The notes: generated by a model not told the origin, from the sequence alone. 44,363 nucleotides of DNA from an uncultured Mycoplasmatota bacterium (GCA_946629885.1 CAMOYI010000006.1:1-44363); one strand, 5' to 3'; counted from the first letter of the stretch, positions 25,661-33,716 are shown. Numbers and translations: made by a program.

Positions 25661-27649
25661 ATGAGAAAATTGTTAATTCTATTAATAGTTCTTTTATCAT
25701 TTGTCATTAATATTAATGTATGGGCCGCAAACAAATATACGCATGGCGTAATCAAAGGAACTACAAACGTTTATAGTGATGCAAATTTTTCTAAGAGATT
25801 GTATAACGACACGGGCAATGCTATAACACTTTATAATGCCGATGTGGTCGAAGTTTTAGATGAAGATACAAAGTATTACAAAGTTTATTTTATTTATTCT
25901 GGTTTCTTTTATACTGGTTATATTGCTAAGAATAATGTATTAAAGACTGAATATGAAATTGATGATAACTATATTAATGAATTAGTATCAAAAGGTTTTC
26001 CGATGGATTATGCAAAAAAATTGGCAATTCTTCATGCAATACATCCAAATTGGACGTTTGTACCTTCCATGACCGGAAAAGTAAATGGAGGCATGGACTT
26101 TAATACTGCCGTAAGCAAAGAAGCCGAAGTCGTCTCTAGAAACTTAATAGACAGCGCTAACACATCTCTTAGATCGACAGAAGATGGTGCTTATATCAAT
26201 GGGCAGTGGATAGGTTTGAGTGGATCGAGATGGTTTGCTGCAAGTAGACAAACTATTGCGTTCTTTTTAGACCCAAGAAATTTTATGGATGAGTCTCACA
26301 TGTTCATGTTTGAAAACTTGGGATATAATCCTACGACACAAACTCGAGAAGTTATAGAAAAAATAATTGGTTCTAGCTTTATGAAGGATCCATTTGAATG
26401 TATTAGTACATCTAATATATGTTCTATTGGAACTCATTACTATGTCGATTCCTTTTTACAAGCAGGTGTCGATAAAAGTGTGAGTCCTGTCCATCTAGCA
26501 ACTAGAGTAATTCAAGAGCAAGGCTCAAAAGGATCGATCTTATCATTAGGTAAGGGATATAAAGATCAATACGTTGGTTACTATAACTTTTATAATATAG
26601 GAGCAAGTGGAAAAACTGATGAAGAAGTAATTACTAATGGTTTGACTTATGCTTACAATCGAAACTGGAATAATCAACATGCTTCTATTTATGACGGTTC
26701 AAGTACTATTGCTTCTAATTACATAAAGTTAGGTCAAAGTACTCTATATTATCAAAAATTTAATACAATACTATTGAATTTTTCGCATCAATACCAACAA
26801 AATGTGAAAGCTCCATATTCCGAAGGCTTTAACACGTATACTAGTTACTACAAGTCTTATGATTCACAAGAGGAATGGAATAACGCAATATACGAATTTT
26901 TAATTCCAGTATACTCAAATATGCCTGTAAGTACTACACTAGATGTATCAGGAAACGATGATTCAACGTTGCGAATGTTAAATATATCAGAATGCAAACT
27001 AAATCCGTCATTTCAATCCAGTGCAAGAGAGTACGATTGTTACTTAAAGAAAGATGTGACTGAAGTCGAGGTAGAGGCGATAGCGACTAATAGCCTTGCA
27101 ACTGTCGATGATATATCAAAAGTTACTTTAGAAAGTGATGAAACAAGGGTAGAAATAAACGTTACTGCTGCCAGTGGTAGCAAGTCGACATATGTTGTAA
27201 ATATACATAGAATTGACACAGATGGCTATTCTCCAAATGAAATAGTCAATGGAATTGGGTATAAAATAAACGGCAACTATATTACAAATATATCACAGGG
27301 TACAGACTTATCAAATATAGTAAATAGTGTCCAAAATAAATACCATTTTGCTTCTATTAATATTCTTAATGGAGCATCTGGAAAAGTAAAGACAGGTTAT
27401 AAATTAACTATTACCAACGCCGGCACTACAGGTACATATGGTTTAGTATTATTTGGTGATACGTCAGGCGATGGAGAAATAGACATACGAGACTTGTTAA
27501 TAATTCAAAAACACCTAGTAAAAGCTAATACTCTTAAAGATGAATATGAGGTAAGCGCCGATGTTAATCACGACGGAATTATAGATATAAGAGATTTGCT
27601 ATTAGAACAAAAACACTTATTGGGACAATATACTATTTCCCAAGGATAG
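25661..27649 (+). CDS. Secreted SH3/glucosaminidase-like peptidoglycan hydrolase with cadherin-like domain and C-terminal type-I dockerin
   Basis: Signal peptide; SH3-like TNVYSDANFSKRLY; HAIHPNWTFVPSMTG...MDFNTAVSKEA; cadherin-like LRMLNISECKLNPSF..REYDCYL; dockerin loops GDTSGDGEIDIRDLLIIQKHL and ADVNHDGIIDIRDLLLEQKHL. Confidence 0.85.
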   Translation: MRKLLILLIVLLSFVININVWAANKYTHGVIKGTTNVYSDANFSKRLYNDTGNAITLYNADVVEVLDEDTKYYKVYFIYSGFFYTGYIAKNNVLKTEYEIDDNYINELVSKGFPMDYAKKLAILHAIHPNWTFVPSMTGKVNGGMDFNTAVSKEAEVVSRNLIDSANTSLRSTEDGAYINGQWIGLSGSRWFAASRQTIAFFLDPRNFMDESHMFMFENLGYNPTTQTREVIEKIIGSSFMKDPFECISTSNICSIGTHYYVDSFLQAGVDKSVSPVHLATRVIQEQGSKGSILSLGKGYKDQYVGYYNFYNIGASGKTDEEVITNGLTYAYNRNWNNQHASIYDGSSTIASNYIKLGQSTLYYQKFNTILLNFSHQYQQNVKAPYSEGFNTYTSYYKSYDSQEEWNNAIYEFLIPVYSNMPVSTTLDVSGNDDSTLRMLNISECKLNPSFQSSAREYDCYLKKDVTEVEVEAIATNSLATVDDISKVTLESDETRVEINVTAASGSKSTYVVNIHRIDTDGYSPNEIVNGIGYKINGNYITNISQGTDLSNIVNSVQNKYHFASINILNGASGKVKTGYKLTITNAGTTGTYGLVLFGDTSGDGEIDIRDLLIIQKHLVKANTLKDEYEVSADVNHDGIIDIRDLLLEQKHLLGQYTISQG

Positions 27650-27657
27650 GAGGAAAA

Positions 27658-28983
27658 ATGAAATATTTGAAGATTTTGCTCTTTGCAATAGTATCGTTTA
27701 TTTTTGTTGGAAATGTGCATGCGGCTTCAGGTTCAATATCAGTATCCAGTTCTACTAAAATGGCAGTCGTAGGATCTACATTTACTGTTACTGTAAAGGT
27801 AAGTTGTTCAGAGGCATTAGGGTCGTGGCAGTTTGGATTAGCATATGATAGTGCCTATGTTTCACTTCAATCTGGTGATACTTCAATCGCCGCATATGGT
27901 GATGGACAATCCAAAGTAAAAACTTATACATATAAGTTTAAAGCGATTAAATCTGGAAGTGCATCCATTAGAATTACAGGAGCTTCAATGGTCTCTTGGA
28001 ATGATGTGAACACATTATTTACGCCTAGCATTTCCAATACTTCGGTAAATGTAAAAACGCAGAAAGAAATAGAGGCTTCTTATAGTAAAGACAACAATCT
28101 AAAGTCACTAAGTGTCGAGGGCTTTGAATTGTCGCCAGCGTTTTCTAAGGATGTTACTGAGTATAGCATTAATGTTCCGGATGATGTATTGTCGATAAAG
28201 GTGGCTGCACAGGTAAATGATGGAAAAGCAAGCGTACGTGGTACTGGAACGATAGATGTGAGTGAAGGCAATAACAAATTGGAAGTAATAGTAACTGCTC
28301 AAAACGGTTCTACTAAAACATATATAATCAATGTTACTGTTAAGGATTTGAATCCAATCGTTGTAAATGTAGATGGAAAGGATTTAAGCGTTGTCAAAAA
28401 AGAATCGCTCTTGACTTGTCCAACTGGATATACACCAAAGACCATTAAGATTAACGATATCGATGTTCCAGGATTCATAAGTGAAATTACCAATTTCGTT
28501 TTAGTTGGACTAAAAGATGACGCGGGAGAAATTAATCTGTATAGATATGATGAAAAAGGATATCTAAGGTATGTCGAAGTTAAATCGAAAGGATTGACAC
28601 TGTATCCCGATAATGCTCCTAGTACACCAAAAGGATTCAAAAAGGAATCTATAACTATAAACGATATAAAAATGACTTCATATACCAGTGAAAACATTGG
28701 TAAAAAAGTTTTAATATATGCGATAAATGTAGAAAACGGTTATAGGGGATTCTATTTATATGATAAAGATGAAAATTCCTTTGTTAGATATGATGAGAAA
28801 ACACTAGAAATACTAGATAAGAAAGATAAAGAGAATAAATTTATCATACTTGCAATGTCTTTGATGTCTTTAATACTATTATGTATCTCGATAGTATTGG
28901 GAAGAAATTATACTAAAATTAAAAAAGCAGTTGTCAAAAAGACAACAAATGAAAAAGAGAACAGTCCTACAAAGGAAGATTAG
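27658..28983 (+). CDS. Membrane-anchored cohesin-domain protein with cadherin-like domain
   Basis: Signal peptide; cohesin-like VSSSTKMAVVGSTFTVTVKVSCSEALGSWQFGLAYDSAYVSLQSGDT...; cadherin-like LKSLSVEGFELSPAFSKDVTEYSINV; C-terminal TM IILAMSLMSLILLCISIVLG plus basic tail. Confidence 0.8.
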   Translation: MKYLKILLFAIVSFIFVGNVHAASGSISVSSSTKMAVVGSTFTVTVKVSCSEALGSWQFGLAYDSAYVSLQSGDTSIAAYGDGQSKVKTYTYKFKAIKSGSASIRITGASMVSWNDVNTLFTPSISNTSVNVKTQKEIEASYSKDNNLKSLSVEGFELSPAFSKDVTEYSINVPDDVLSIKVAAQVNDGKASVRGTGTIDVSEGNNKLEVIVTAQNGSTKTYIINVTVKDLNPIVVNVDGKDLSVVKKESLLTCPTGYTPKTIKINDIDVPGFISEITNFVLVGLKDDAGEINLYRYDEKGYLRYVEVKSKGLTLYPDNAPSTPKGFKKESITINDIKMTSYTSENIGKKVLIYAINVENGYRGFYLYDKDENSFVRYDEKTLEILDKKDKENKFIILAMSLMSLILLCISIVLGRNYTKIKKAVVKKTTNEKENSPTKED

Positions 28984-30293: not shown

Positions 30294-30348
30294 CTTTATA
30301 TGGCTACAAAAATGTGTTATACTTCAATTATAGAATAGAGTGATAGTA

Positions 30349-31581
30349 ATGAAAAATAGAGGCTTTATTGCAACATCATTAATATATTCATTTTTCTTAG
30401 TATTTTTAGTATTATTGGCAGTAATCTTAAATAGTATGATTTTCAATAATCGTATACTCAATGTGTATAACAAATCCATAATGAATAAACTCAATAAAGA
30501 AATAGATAAGACTTCGGATGAACCATCATATGTCAAAGATGATTTAGAGATACTAGATATTAGGCCACAAACAGGCACACCTAATTTTAATTCGGTTGCA
30601 ACGACTAATGAGGGCGTTTTTATTGCAGAGGATAATCATGGTACAAGTTACTACTATCGCGGCAATATAGACAATAACTATATGGTTTTTGGCCATAAAA
30701 CTGGCGATCCTGATGATGGGCATCCACTATATTGGAGAATAGTTAGAATTAATGGAGATGGTTCTCTAAGGCTCATGTACGAAGGATATATGGATAGAAG
30801 AAACTTGATAAAAGATTCTATTGGAAACGTGGCATGGAGTACTAGTACTTCATCTGTTGGAATACATCAGGCCTTTAATAGAACACTAAATACGTTTTAT
30901 ACGGACAGCTTTTTAAATACAGAATATGAAGCATATATCAGTGATTCTGGTTTTTGCTCTACTATTGCATCTAAAACGAACAACCCGGAAAACTGTTCTA
31001 TGAGAGATGGAAACATAACTTGTGGTGGCCAAGCAATGGAAATTACAGATTTTTCAGATTACGACAAAGTGGCAACATTTGGTCCAACTGCTATTGGAGC
31101 TAGTCCATCTCTAAAGTGTGACAAGGCAAATCAATATACTGTATCAACTATTAACGGGAATGGTTATTTAACATATCCAATAGGTATAATAAGTTCTAAC
31201 GAAATAGTCATGGCTGGTGGCAGATACTTGCAGGAAAACAGCAACAAATATATTAATGAAGATTTTTACTTGTACAAACAGGAAGACTATTGGACCTCTG
31301 CTCTATTTACCAAAAAAACCAATAGCGGCGGAGGAGGATCTCTTATGTCAATTAGATTTTTAACTGGCAAAATAACTCCAACAGAACCAACAGATCCGTC
31401 AGCTGGTAGTACTGGAAACTACGTTTTAACGTATTCTACAGATGGATCACTAATTGAAAAGAGTATTAACGATGCAAAAATAGGTGTATACCCTGTAATT
31501 AATGTAAAAGAGGAGTATATTTCAACCATTGAAGGGGATGGAACTATAAATAATCCATTTATAGGAAAATTAGATAGGTGA
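30349..31581 (+). CDS. Pilin-like N-terminus with large C-terminal ectodomain
   Basis: MKNRGFIATSLIYSFFLVFLVLLAVILN (class III signal-like, no Glu5) followed by YYYRGNIDNNYMVFGHK...YWRIVRINGDGSLRLMYEG. Confidence 0.68.
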   Translation: MKNRGFIATSLIYSFFLVFLVLLAVILNSMIFNNRILNVYNKSIMNKLNKEIDKTSDEPSYVKDDLEILDIRPQTGTPNFNSVATTNEGVFIAEDNHGTSYYYRGNIDNNYMVFGHKTGDPDDGHPLYWRIVRINGDGSLRLMYEGYMDRRNLIKDSIGNVAWSTSTSSVGIHQAFNRTLNTFYTDSFLNTEYEAYISDSGFCSTIASKTNNPENCSMRDGNITCGGQAMEITDFSDYDKVATFGPTAIGASPSLKCDKANQYTVSTINGNGYLTYPIGIISSNEIVMAGGRYLQENSNKYINEDFYLYKQEDYWTSALFTKKTNSGGGGSLMSIRFLTGKITPTEPTDPSAGSTGNYVLTYSTDGSLIEKSINDAKIGVYPVINVKEEYISTIEGDGTINNPFIGKLDR

Positions 31582-31585
31582 AGAT

Positions 31586-32116
31586 ATGAAAAATAAGGGA
31601 TTTGTATTACTAGAAACAATTGCTGTACTATCTATCATATGTATTACACTTGTCACCCTATATAGTGCTTACATAAGAATTATTAAAAATGTAAAAGAGC
31701 GAAGTTTCTATGATAATACGGAGTACATATATAAGACAAAATTAATTGGAGATTTACTATCTAGTGATATTAGTAGTGAAGATATAAAAGATAAAGATAT
31801 TTTTATATATTGTAATACTGCCGTATACAGAACTCAAGCTAATCCTAATCCAACATTGGTTACATGTAATAGTGATTCGATGAAATATAAGAACTTATTT
31901 ACTGCGATGAATGTAAAAGGTGTTTATATTACAACTTGGAATACGAGAGAAATAGATTCGATGTCATATATAGAGGTTGAACCAACCACACAGAAATATT
32001 TAAACCATATTAACGATAAGAGAGGTACAGGATATAAAATTATAGTAATGTACAGTGATAGAGTATCACCTAAAAAGTATCAATACGCATCACTTAGGTT
32101 TGTTCCTGAATCATAG
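31586..32116 (+). CDS. Prepilin-like protein
   Basis: MKNKG-FVLLETIAVLSIICITLVTLYSAY with Glu5. Confidence 0.8.
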   Translation: MKNKGFVLLETIAVLSIICITLVTLYSAYIRIIKNVKERSFYDNTEYIYKTKLIGDLLSSDISSEDIKDKDIFIYCNTAVYRTQANPNPTLVTCNSDSMKYKNLFTAMNVKGVYITTWNTREIDSMSYIEVEPTTQKYLNHINDKRGTGYKIIVMYSDRVSPKKYQYASLRFVPES

Positions 32117-32131
32117 GGAGTGTGAAAAAAA

Positions 32132-32497
32132 GTGAACAAGAAAGGTTTTACGTTAATTGAATTGTTAGTTATCATTGGGCTTTTGGCATTGATGGCAGGA
32201 CTTTTTTCAGTCAACATGGTGCAAATATTAAATAAAACCAACTCGGATTCAGAAGAGGAAGGCTATTCAGAGCTAATCGCGGCGACAGATGTGTACTTGG
32301 CAATTAATAAAGAAAAACTAGCCTTGCTACATAATGGCGAATCCAACAAGATTAAAATACCAATTAAAAGTTTAAAAGATGAAGGTCTTATCAGTAGGGA
32401 TTATTCTATAAATGGAAAAAAGATTCGAGATGATATGTCTATAGTCGTCATTTTAGGTGACAAAGGTGAACTTGAAATAAGTATTGAAAAGAGTTGA
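32132..32497 (+). CDS. Prepilin-type protein
   Basis: MNKKG-FTLIELLVIIGLLALMAGLF, GTG start. Confidence 0.85.
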   Translation: MNKKGFTLIELLVIIGLLALMAGLFSVNMVQILNKTNSDSEEEGYSELIAATDVYLAINKEKLALLHNGESNKIKIPIKSLKDEGLISRDYSINGKKIRDDMSIVVILGDKGELEISIEKS

Positions 32498-32502
32498 ACA
32501 TA

Positions 32503-33219
32503 ATGAATAGAAAAGGTTTTACATTAGTCGAATTATTAGCTATTATCATGCTTTTAACTATTTTAGTTGTCTTGATAATTACAAATGTAACTGGACCTTT
32601 AGATAGTTCTAATAGTACTATAGAAAATTCGCAGATAAACGTACTTTTAGCAGCAGCAAAAAACTACGCAGAAGATAATATTAATGATTATGCAAGTTGT
32701 ACATACAATACTAATCTGCCAATACCAAGCTTGTGCTCAATAAGTACAAGAGTGCTTGTCGATGAAGGATACTTGAATGAAGAAGAGATAGATAGATTAG
32801 ATGACAAACACACCATAATAGCATGTTACAATTCTGACAACACTACTATTTCTGTGTATTATAAGGATAAGAGAACAGCCGACTGTAAAGATGTTGAATC
32901 TCATAGGATTCATATAGAACCACAGATAATGTCTACTTATTACTTAGACACGGCTACTTTGTCGACAAACATATCGACAAACGGCGTATTTGAATCTTTT
33001 GTTTGCGAGGTTAGTCCAGATGATTTCGAACGCTCAAGCTGGGCTACTTGTACCATTTCAAGCGACCATAAATCGATGTACATCCAATATTATGGAAGAG
33101 AAGATTTTCCTTATTTGAGTTCTCAAAATTTGACCATAAGAATAATAGGTAAATATAAAGATGAAAACGATAATGAAAAAGAACTAACGAAGAACTTTAG
33201 GTTAGTTATATTTAAATAG
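32503..33219 (+). CDS. Prepilin-type protein
   Basis: MNRKG-FTLVELLAIIMLLTILVVLI; ATG 32503 preferred over TTG 32494. Confidence 0.85.
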   Translation: MNRKGFTLVELLAIIMLLTILVVLIITNVTGPLDSSNSTIENSQINVLLAAAKNYAEDNINDYASCTYNTNLPIPSLCSISTRVLVDEGYLNEEEIDRLDDKHTIIACYNSDNTTISVYYKDKRTADCKDVESHRIHIEPQIMSTYYLDTATLSTNISTNGVFESFVCEVSPDDFERSSWATCTISSDHKSMYIQYYGREDFPYLSSQNLTIRIIGKYKDENDNEKELTKNFRLVIFK

Positions 33220-33233
33220 GCGAGGGATATCAT

Positions 33234-33716
33234 ATGAATAGAAAAGGCTTTACAGTACTCGAATTGTTAGTAAGTATCATAATATTATCAGTAGTTTTGA
33301 CATTTGCTATGAATTTATTTTTAAGAGTGCGTGCTTCATATACTACAGAGAAAAAAAATATCGAGATGGAAGTGTCTAAAAGCATTGTGATAGATACAGT
33401 CATGAGTGACGTATACGAATATGGTGTTAGCAGCGTAAATTGTGTTGGAGATAATGTTACAATAAATTTTAATACAACTCCCGTCACTAAAAAAATTCTC
33501 GCTTTTAACAAAAGTGACGCTTCATACGATTATATAACATACAGAGATAATGCAAACGTAATTATGTCTAGAAGGCTACCAAAGGGCAGTCTAAAAAGTG
33601 GACCTATATGTAGATCAAGTCTTGGACTGAGTGAGGGCGCAATTACAAATATCTTCTATAGAATAGAGGATGACAATAAAAACGACTATTCCATAGATAT
33701 GTTCCTACCGGCATAG
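33234..33716 (+). CDS. Prepilin-type protein
   Basis: MNRKG-FTVLELLVSIIILSVVLTFAMNLF. Confidence 0.85.
   Translation: MNRKGFTVLELLVSIIILSVVLTFAMNLFLRVRASYTTEKKNIEMEVSKSIVIDTVMSDVYEYGVSSVNCVGDNVTINFNTTPVTKKILAFNKSDASYDYITYRDNANVIMSRRLPKGSLKSGPICRSSLGLSEGAITNIFYRIEDDNKNDYSIDMFLPA

Follow-up and report, generated by a model that had tools for sequence, protein, structure and literature searches.

A putative dockerin-cohesin pair predicted to tether a peptidoglycan glycosidase to the membrane in uncultured gut Bacilli

Described systems and the P1-P2 locus

The digestion of plant fibre is the textbook setting of cohesin-dockerin pairs. Dockerins are also already known on wall hydrolases that form part of large cellulosomes, including a lysozyme of R. 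champanellensis (PMC6403190) and an NlpC/P60 protein of R. flavefaciens (PMC3573020), and cohesins that act pairwise outside cellulosomes have been described. A different arrangement is found in S. aureus, where SpdC scaffolds the glucosaminidase SagB at the membrane and nascent strands are cut to the right length (PMC10581084, PMC12272431). No account of a membrane cohesin dedicated to a peptidoglycan glycosidase was found in the literature searched, which covered few subscription papers, and searches combining RF39 with dockerin, or dockerin with glucosaminidase or autolysin, gave no account of the system considered here.

This system consists of two genes in the window, the whole stretch of 44,363 nucleotides that was analysed. 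P1 (25661..27649, + strand; 662 aa) encodes a signal peptide, an SH3-like region, a SagB-like glucosaminidase domain, a cadherin-like module, an X module and a dockerin. P2 (27658..28983, + strand; 441 aa) encodes a signal peptide, a cohesin, a cadherin-like domain, a beta domain, a transmembrane helix and a basic tail. The P1 stop and the P2 start lie 8 nt apart (27650-27657), and the coordinates of both reading frames and of this gap, as given in a preliminary description, were reproduced exactly. Consensus scanning located a terminator-like hairpin with a T-run upstream of P1 (25596..25611, + strand) and a TATAAT between this hairpin and P1 (25632-25637), which is suggestive of a two-gene unit. 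Just 3' of the pair, at 30340-33716, lies a run of prepilin-like genes with GFTLIELL motifs and, in two of them, an N_methyl domain.

Domain composition of the two proteins

The enzyme domain of P1 (aa 93-422; 25937..26926, + strand) matches SagB of S. aureus (NCBIfam NF052642, 2e-11) and the PDB entries 6fxp and 6u0o (E about 1e-10). It reaches 43.6 bits against the NCBIfam model, far below the cut-off of 425, and is therefore regarded as related to SagB and not as SagB itself. Glu286 (codon 26516-26518) is the counterpart in the alignment of SagB residue 155 (6u0o), which we take to be the catalytic Glu of that enzyme, and is invariant across 74 aligned orthologues. Both the sequence similarity and the catalytic Glu of a SagB-type glucosaminidase are thus present in P1, as in a relative of SagB. 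A domain scan detected SH3_3 in 55 of 74 P1 orthologues, and the earlier reading of the enzyme as SH3/glucosaminidase-like agrees with these results. The cadherin-like module that had been noticed in both proteins was also recovered: PF12733 scores 43.6 bits (4e-11) in P2 (aa 148-227; 28099..28338, + strand) and 23.6 bits in P1 (aa 442-517; 26984..27211, + strand), just below the cut-off of 24.2. In nine loci (L107, L121, L122, L127, L129, L132, L134, L139 and L147) the SagB-like domain of P1 is circularly permuted, with profile positions of about 205-323 preceding positions 10-238, and the genes with this permuted enzyme form one supported group on the tree.

P1 ends in a type I dockerin (aa 599-653; 27455..27619, + strand), which scores 40.6 bits against PF00404 (cut-off 22.9). 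Its two Ca-binding loops (27458-27493 and 27560-27595, + strand) are intact as read from the sequence (DTSGDGEIDIRD and DVNHDGIIDIRD), so that the dockerin carries both the model match and the paired loops of its type, as the preliminary description had proposed. PF00404 is matched by 73 of 74 P1 orthologues. The recognition positions 10, 11, 13, 17 and 18 are the same in both repeats of P1 (I R L Q K). Across dockerins, recognition positions agree between the two repeats of one protein in 90% of cases, versus 70% between proteins of one class, which is consistent with dual-mode binding. The genome-wide dockerin count that had been suggested as a check returned the P1 dockerin as the sole one in the window's genome, an assembly of 0.96 Mb that is 70% complete.

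The cohesin domain of P2 (aa 24-134; 27727..28059, + strand) had been called by eye, and the call needed a test because the window's own P2, taken alone, stays below the threshold of the Pfam cohesin model (PF00963). This model is matched at E < 0.01 by 14 of 74 P2 orthologues, and a family-wide search placed P2 orthologues above the curated cut-off in many genomes (e.g., G044, G043 and G084). When a profile of the 74 orthologues was compared with the PDB, the cohesins 3l8q, 6kg8 and 6kgc ranked first, with E-values of 2e-4 to 5e-4 over about residues 23-115. The AF2 model of the window's P2 has a mean pLDDT of 93, and its single-domain fold matches in Foldseek include the cohesins 2jh2 and 2xdh (TM 0.58-0.59). 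For the modelled N-terminal domain of the orthologue at locus L077, the top eight Foldseek matches are all cohesins, among them 2w1n, 2jh2, 2xdh, 2vo8 (TM 0.70, the best), 4dh2 and 6kgc. P2 therefore combines a cohesin profile match, by way of its orthologues, with a nine-stranded sandwich in the AF2 and Foldseek analyses; the absence of a cohesin fold, which would have spoken against the call, was checked for, and the fold was found.

The extracellular beta domain that follows the cadherin-like domain of P2 (aa 235-377; 28360..28788, + strand) had no family match in the Pfam scan. It is kept in homologues that lack the cohesin, and P2 thus probably has some additional function. A single transmembrane helix (aa 395-416; 28840..28905, + strand), evident from the sequence and from an AF2 helix at 380-416, is followed by a basic cytoplasmic tail that extends to 28980 on the + strand as read from the sequence, in keeping with the earlier account of the C-terminus. 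A second P2-like protein is encoded in the window's genome (L251:1420-2757, contig C38) and comprises an N-terminal beta region, two cadherin-like domains, a transmembrane helix and an acidic tail; its N-terminal domain did not match the cohesin profile.

Distribution and co-variation of the pair

The pair was surveyed in 117 genomes representing 116 genera of the window's Bacilli family, which we take to belong to GTDB order RF39 from 'Candidatus Caccenecus' and MAG titles; a search for papers that use both names returned none. P2 homologues occur in 95 of the 117 genomes and are full length in 80. In addition to the window, 80 further loci around P2 orthologues were collected, and the removal of loci cut by a contig end left 80 assessable loci from about 80 genera. 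In 77 of these the gene immediately before P2 encodes a dockerin, usually 0-30 nt away, the exceptions being L136, L144 and L150. A set of loci from named records, obtained by a DNA-pattern scan with a 10-row subset of an alignment, which are MAGs of uncultured Bacilli, Mollicutes and Tenericutes, mostly from the gut, and one Candidatus Caccenecus avistercoris, gave the same arrangement in 79 of 80, with the remaining locus cut by a contig end. The two sets overlap and together hold 141 distinct P1-P2 pairs.

Dockerins were found in 79 of the 80 genomes with full-length P2 versus 11 of the 37 without (Fisher 3e-16), and the SagB-like enzyme family in 74 of 80 versus 1 of 37. The genes murG and mraY are nearly universal across the family, which rules out that absence of the pair simply reflects absence of a wall. 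Three genomes stand apart. G066 (locus L136) has kept a cohesin-bearing P2 beside a P1 without a dockerin, which counts against the partnership, and is the only family genome with full-length P2 in which no dockerin was found; its P1 (2767-5415) bears several SH3 repeats and an SH3-like insert within the catalytic domain. G015 and G042 carry P2 without an adjoining enzyme, which counts against the tether reading.

Outside the family, a class-wide sample revealed P2 homologues in two other Bacilli families (f13 and f19), and all nine full-length P2 genes fetched have a gene for a dockerin protein directly upstream. Seven of the nine enzymes are PF01832 glucosaminidases (one just under the cut-off), one is a GH25 muramidase and one is SagB-like. 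PF01832-type enzymes also bear the dockerin at four loci of the window's own family, three recognised by Pfam (L101, L112 and L124) and one by sequence resemblance (L118). The dockerin is therefore joined to SagB-like, circularly permuted SagB-like, PF01832 and GH25 enzymes, each a peptidoglycan glycosidase by domain. Since these different enzymes carry it upstream of P2 both within and beyond the family, the enzyme is exchangeable and the coupling is retained. In two genomes (G351 and G362) the neighbouring metA is retained in the same synteny, P2 is without its cohesin domain, and neither a dockerin gene nor a remnant of one was detected; thus, the dockerin and the cohesin were gained or lost together. 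Other architectures with these modules were also observed. In another Bacilli family, a subtilisin-like protease with a dockerin (L250:3898-6816) is encoded close to a P2-like protein with a cohesin; in the window's sister species, a single large chain carries first a cohesin, next a TM-like stretch and last a dockerin (L253, G083:C6:22000-30500, reading frame from 4842); and both modules occur in proteins of 2,000-3,000 aa in several relatives.

Co-variation was studied by comparing distance matrices of the domains over 132 pairs. Dockerin and cohesin distances correlate at r=0.74 (partial 0.67), compared with 0.28 for the dockerin and the X module next to it in P1, 0.29 (partial 0.06) for the dockerin and its own enzyme, and 0.38 (partial 0.16) for the cohesin and its own cadherin-like neighbour. 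After dereplication to 68 pairs, the partial correlations are 0.60 for dockerin-cohesin, 0.10 for dockerin-X, 0.06 for dockerin-enzyme and 0.14 for cohesin-cadherin, and within the main cohesin class alone the dockerin-cohesin value is 0.42 versus <=0.21 for the controls. A tree built from the remaining domains implies about 14 changes of cohesin class, and its supported branches require at least 7 changes between the main class and the rest. Among independent pairs, the dockerin class moves in the same direction in 5.0 of 7 and in the opposite direction in 0.2 (sign test p=0.0625). Mosaic loci are informative: the NSADLLRMRQ dockerin class and its cohesin class accompany the permuted enzyme, the normal enzyme (L130) and, by eye, a PF01832-type enzyme (L118), and the mosaic L134 joins the permuted enzyme to another dockerin class together with the cohesin of that class. 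Locus L122, which has a main-class cohesin and an other-class dockerin, is a natural mismatch.

At the residue level, coupling was scored by permutation z-scores in 81 dereplicated pairs, in place of entropy-normalised mutual information, which gave artefacts at near-invariant columns. Column pairs with z>6 make up 2.5% of those between dockerin and cohesin versus 0.03-0.2% of those between dockerin and the cadherin-like, X and enzyme domains. In each of the top 40 couplings the dockerin column is position 13, 17 or 18, with both repeats represented, and in 27 of them the cohesin column lies on strand b3 (aa 54-63; 27817-27846, + strand). With strand numbering mapped from the AF2 secondary structure, coupling is stronger on the strands of the 8-3-6-5 face, through which cohesins bind dockerins in solved complexes (PMC5429695), than on those of the opposite face (p=3e-5; 0.01 in the enzyme control). 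Residue L120, an alignment artefact in a column with many gaps, was dropped. Within the main class the residue-level coupling is weak, and it thus rests largely on class switches. At L077, a natural in-frame stretch from dockerin through signal peptide to cohesin, with the intergenic TAG read as serine, was modelled by AF2 as one chain. Both modules are folded (pLDDT 91), with a pTM of 0.56, about as for unplaced modules, and the hydrophobic signal-peptide linker is likely to hinder docking in this model.

A proposed membrane tether, its alternatives and its relation to known systems

The domain identities, the conserved pair, its joint presence and absence, the class-matched co-variation and the exchange of enzymes with retention of the coupling lead us to consider it likely, with good confidence, that P1 and P2 are dedicated partners in a one-to-one complex, in which P2 would be the membrane tether of the peptidoglycan glycosidase P1. 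The preliminary description had proposed such a tether, made of one dockerin and a single membrane cohesin, and conservation, joint presence/absence and module co-variation now strongly support it. We infer from these data a physical binding of P1 to P2, its Ca dependence, the activity of the enzyme and an effect on strand length or release. P1 would be secreted, and its SagB-like domain would cut the glycan strands of peptidoglycan. The C-terminal dockerin, presumably Ca-loaded, would plug into the single cohesin of P2, which one TM helix would hold in the membrane, and the enzyme would thereby be kept at the outer membrane face, where new strands emerge. The complex may limit the length of strands or release them, and may prevent the loss of a dangerous enzyme.

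It is very improbable that the P1 dockerin binds a cohesin elsewhere, for instance on a multi-cohesin scaffold, and that P2 is a mere neighbour. Some relatives do have additional cohesins and as many as 12 dockerin stretches, and the window's genome, only 70% complete, encodes the second P2-like protein on contig C38. However, the N-terminal domain of that protein fails the cohesin profile, 55 of the 90 dockerin-bearing family genomes have one dockerin stretch only, the dockerin class tracks the cohesin of the adjacent P2 (clusters matched in 125 of 132 pairs), and G351 and G362 are without both modules. The correlation might instead arise by linkage, if adjacent stretches of DNA were exchanged together and binding were not under selection. 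The 3' part of P1 adjoins the 5' part of P2, recombination across both could raise the correlation, and the mosaics L130, L134 and L118 exist; yet the equally close dockerin-X and cohesin-cadherin pairs reach partial correlations of 0.135 and 0.159 against 0.671, and the coupling is concentrated at the recognition positions and the 8-3-6-5 face, so we give linkage little credence.

The target of the complex is a further question. According to published predictions, a peptidoglycan wall is retained in most RF39 species, and most PBPs and lyt/cwl endopeptidases were lost in the ancestor shared by RFN20, RF39 and ML615J-28 (PMC10868615). The complex could nevertheless serve as an extracellular weapon or feeding device directed at the walls of other bacteria or at host glycans, given that dockerin-bearing lysozymes are reported in a cellulosome (PMC6403190) and that gut bacteria use dockerins in mucin degradation (PMC12997984). 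This appears unlikely, as a single membrane cohesin is paired with one enzyme, the pair is retained in most genera of a walled family with reduced genomes, and no mucin or plant CAZyme domains were found in the P1 proteins scanned. Furthermore, the commonest neighbours of the pair in relatives are wall-polymer genes, namely LytR-CpsA-Psr (LCP) ligases in 43 of 79 loci, GT4-type glycosyltransferases in 26 and O-antigen-ligase-like polymerases in 20, with none near the window's own P1-P2. Returning to the tether, we advance more tentatively, at somewhat under an even chance, a broader proposal: that a widespread, previously undescribed cohesin-dockerin lock, Ca-dependent, swappable and divided into several co-evolving specificity classes, would hold interchangeable glycosidases, either a glucosaminidase or a muramidase, at the membrane in most genera of the family as well as in two other Bacilli families, and that strand length would be set or nascent strands released there, a task that falls to SagB-SpdC in S. 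aureus.

Cohesin-dockerin coupling as a conserved one-to-one anchor of wall glycosidases suggests a housekeeping role for this device. Two unnamed genes, found in most genera of a gut lineage that is abundant but uncultured, would gain a testable function, and the natural cognate pairs, roughly 140 in number and of several specificity classes, provide material on how such coupling evolves.

P1-P2 shares with type I cellulosomes the dockerin with two Ca loops, its repeat symmetry, the cohesin fold, and recognition at positions 17 and 18 versus the 8-3-6-5 face. The term 'minimal cellulosome-like complex', first suggested for the locus, fits this coupling alone. The likeness ends there, because P1-P2 has one cohesin, one enzyme and a TM anchor, its enzymes are peptidoglycan glycosidases only, and no multi-cohesin scaffoldin, CBM, cellulase or other plant polysaccharide enzyme was found in the proteins scanned. 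Ruminococcal cellulosomes likewise join a wall hydrolase to a dockerin, as one of many parts, whereas P1 would be the dedicated partner of one anchor. The nearest folds to the P2 cohesin are non-cellulosomal, from C. perfringens GH84/GH33 proteins (2jh2 and 2vo8) and Archaeoglobus fulgidus (2xdh), and resemble it in pairwise use in place of a scaffold; the C. perfringens cohesins sit on glycoside hydrolases, whereas that of P2 sits on a membrane anchor and its presumed target is the wall.

By analogy, the SagB-SpdC (LyrA) peptidoglycan release complex may be a closer functional counterpart than the cellulosome, since in both a dedicated partner would fix the position and orientation of a SagB-like glucosaminidase at the membrane, and P2 would scaffold P1 through the dockerin-cohesin lock as SpdC does SagB. 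The two differ in construction: SpdC is multi-pass, CAAX-protease-like and bound directly, whereas P2 is single-pass with extracellular beta domains, and P1 is a secreted enzyme with SH3 and dockerin modules that would be linked through its dockerin to the cohesin. P1-P2 would represent a second, independent solution to the problem solved by SagB-SpdC.
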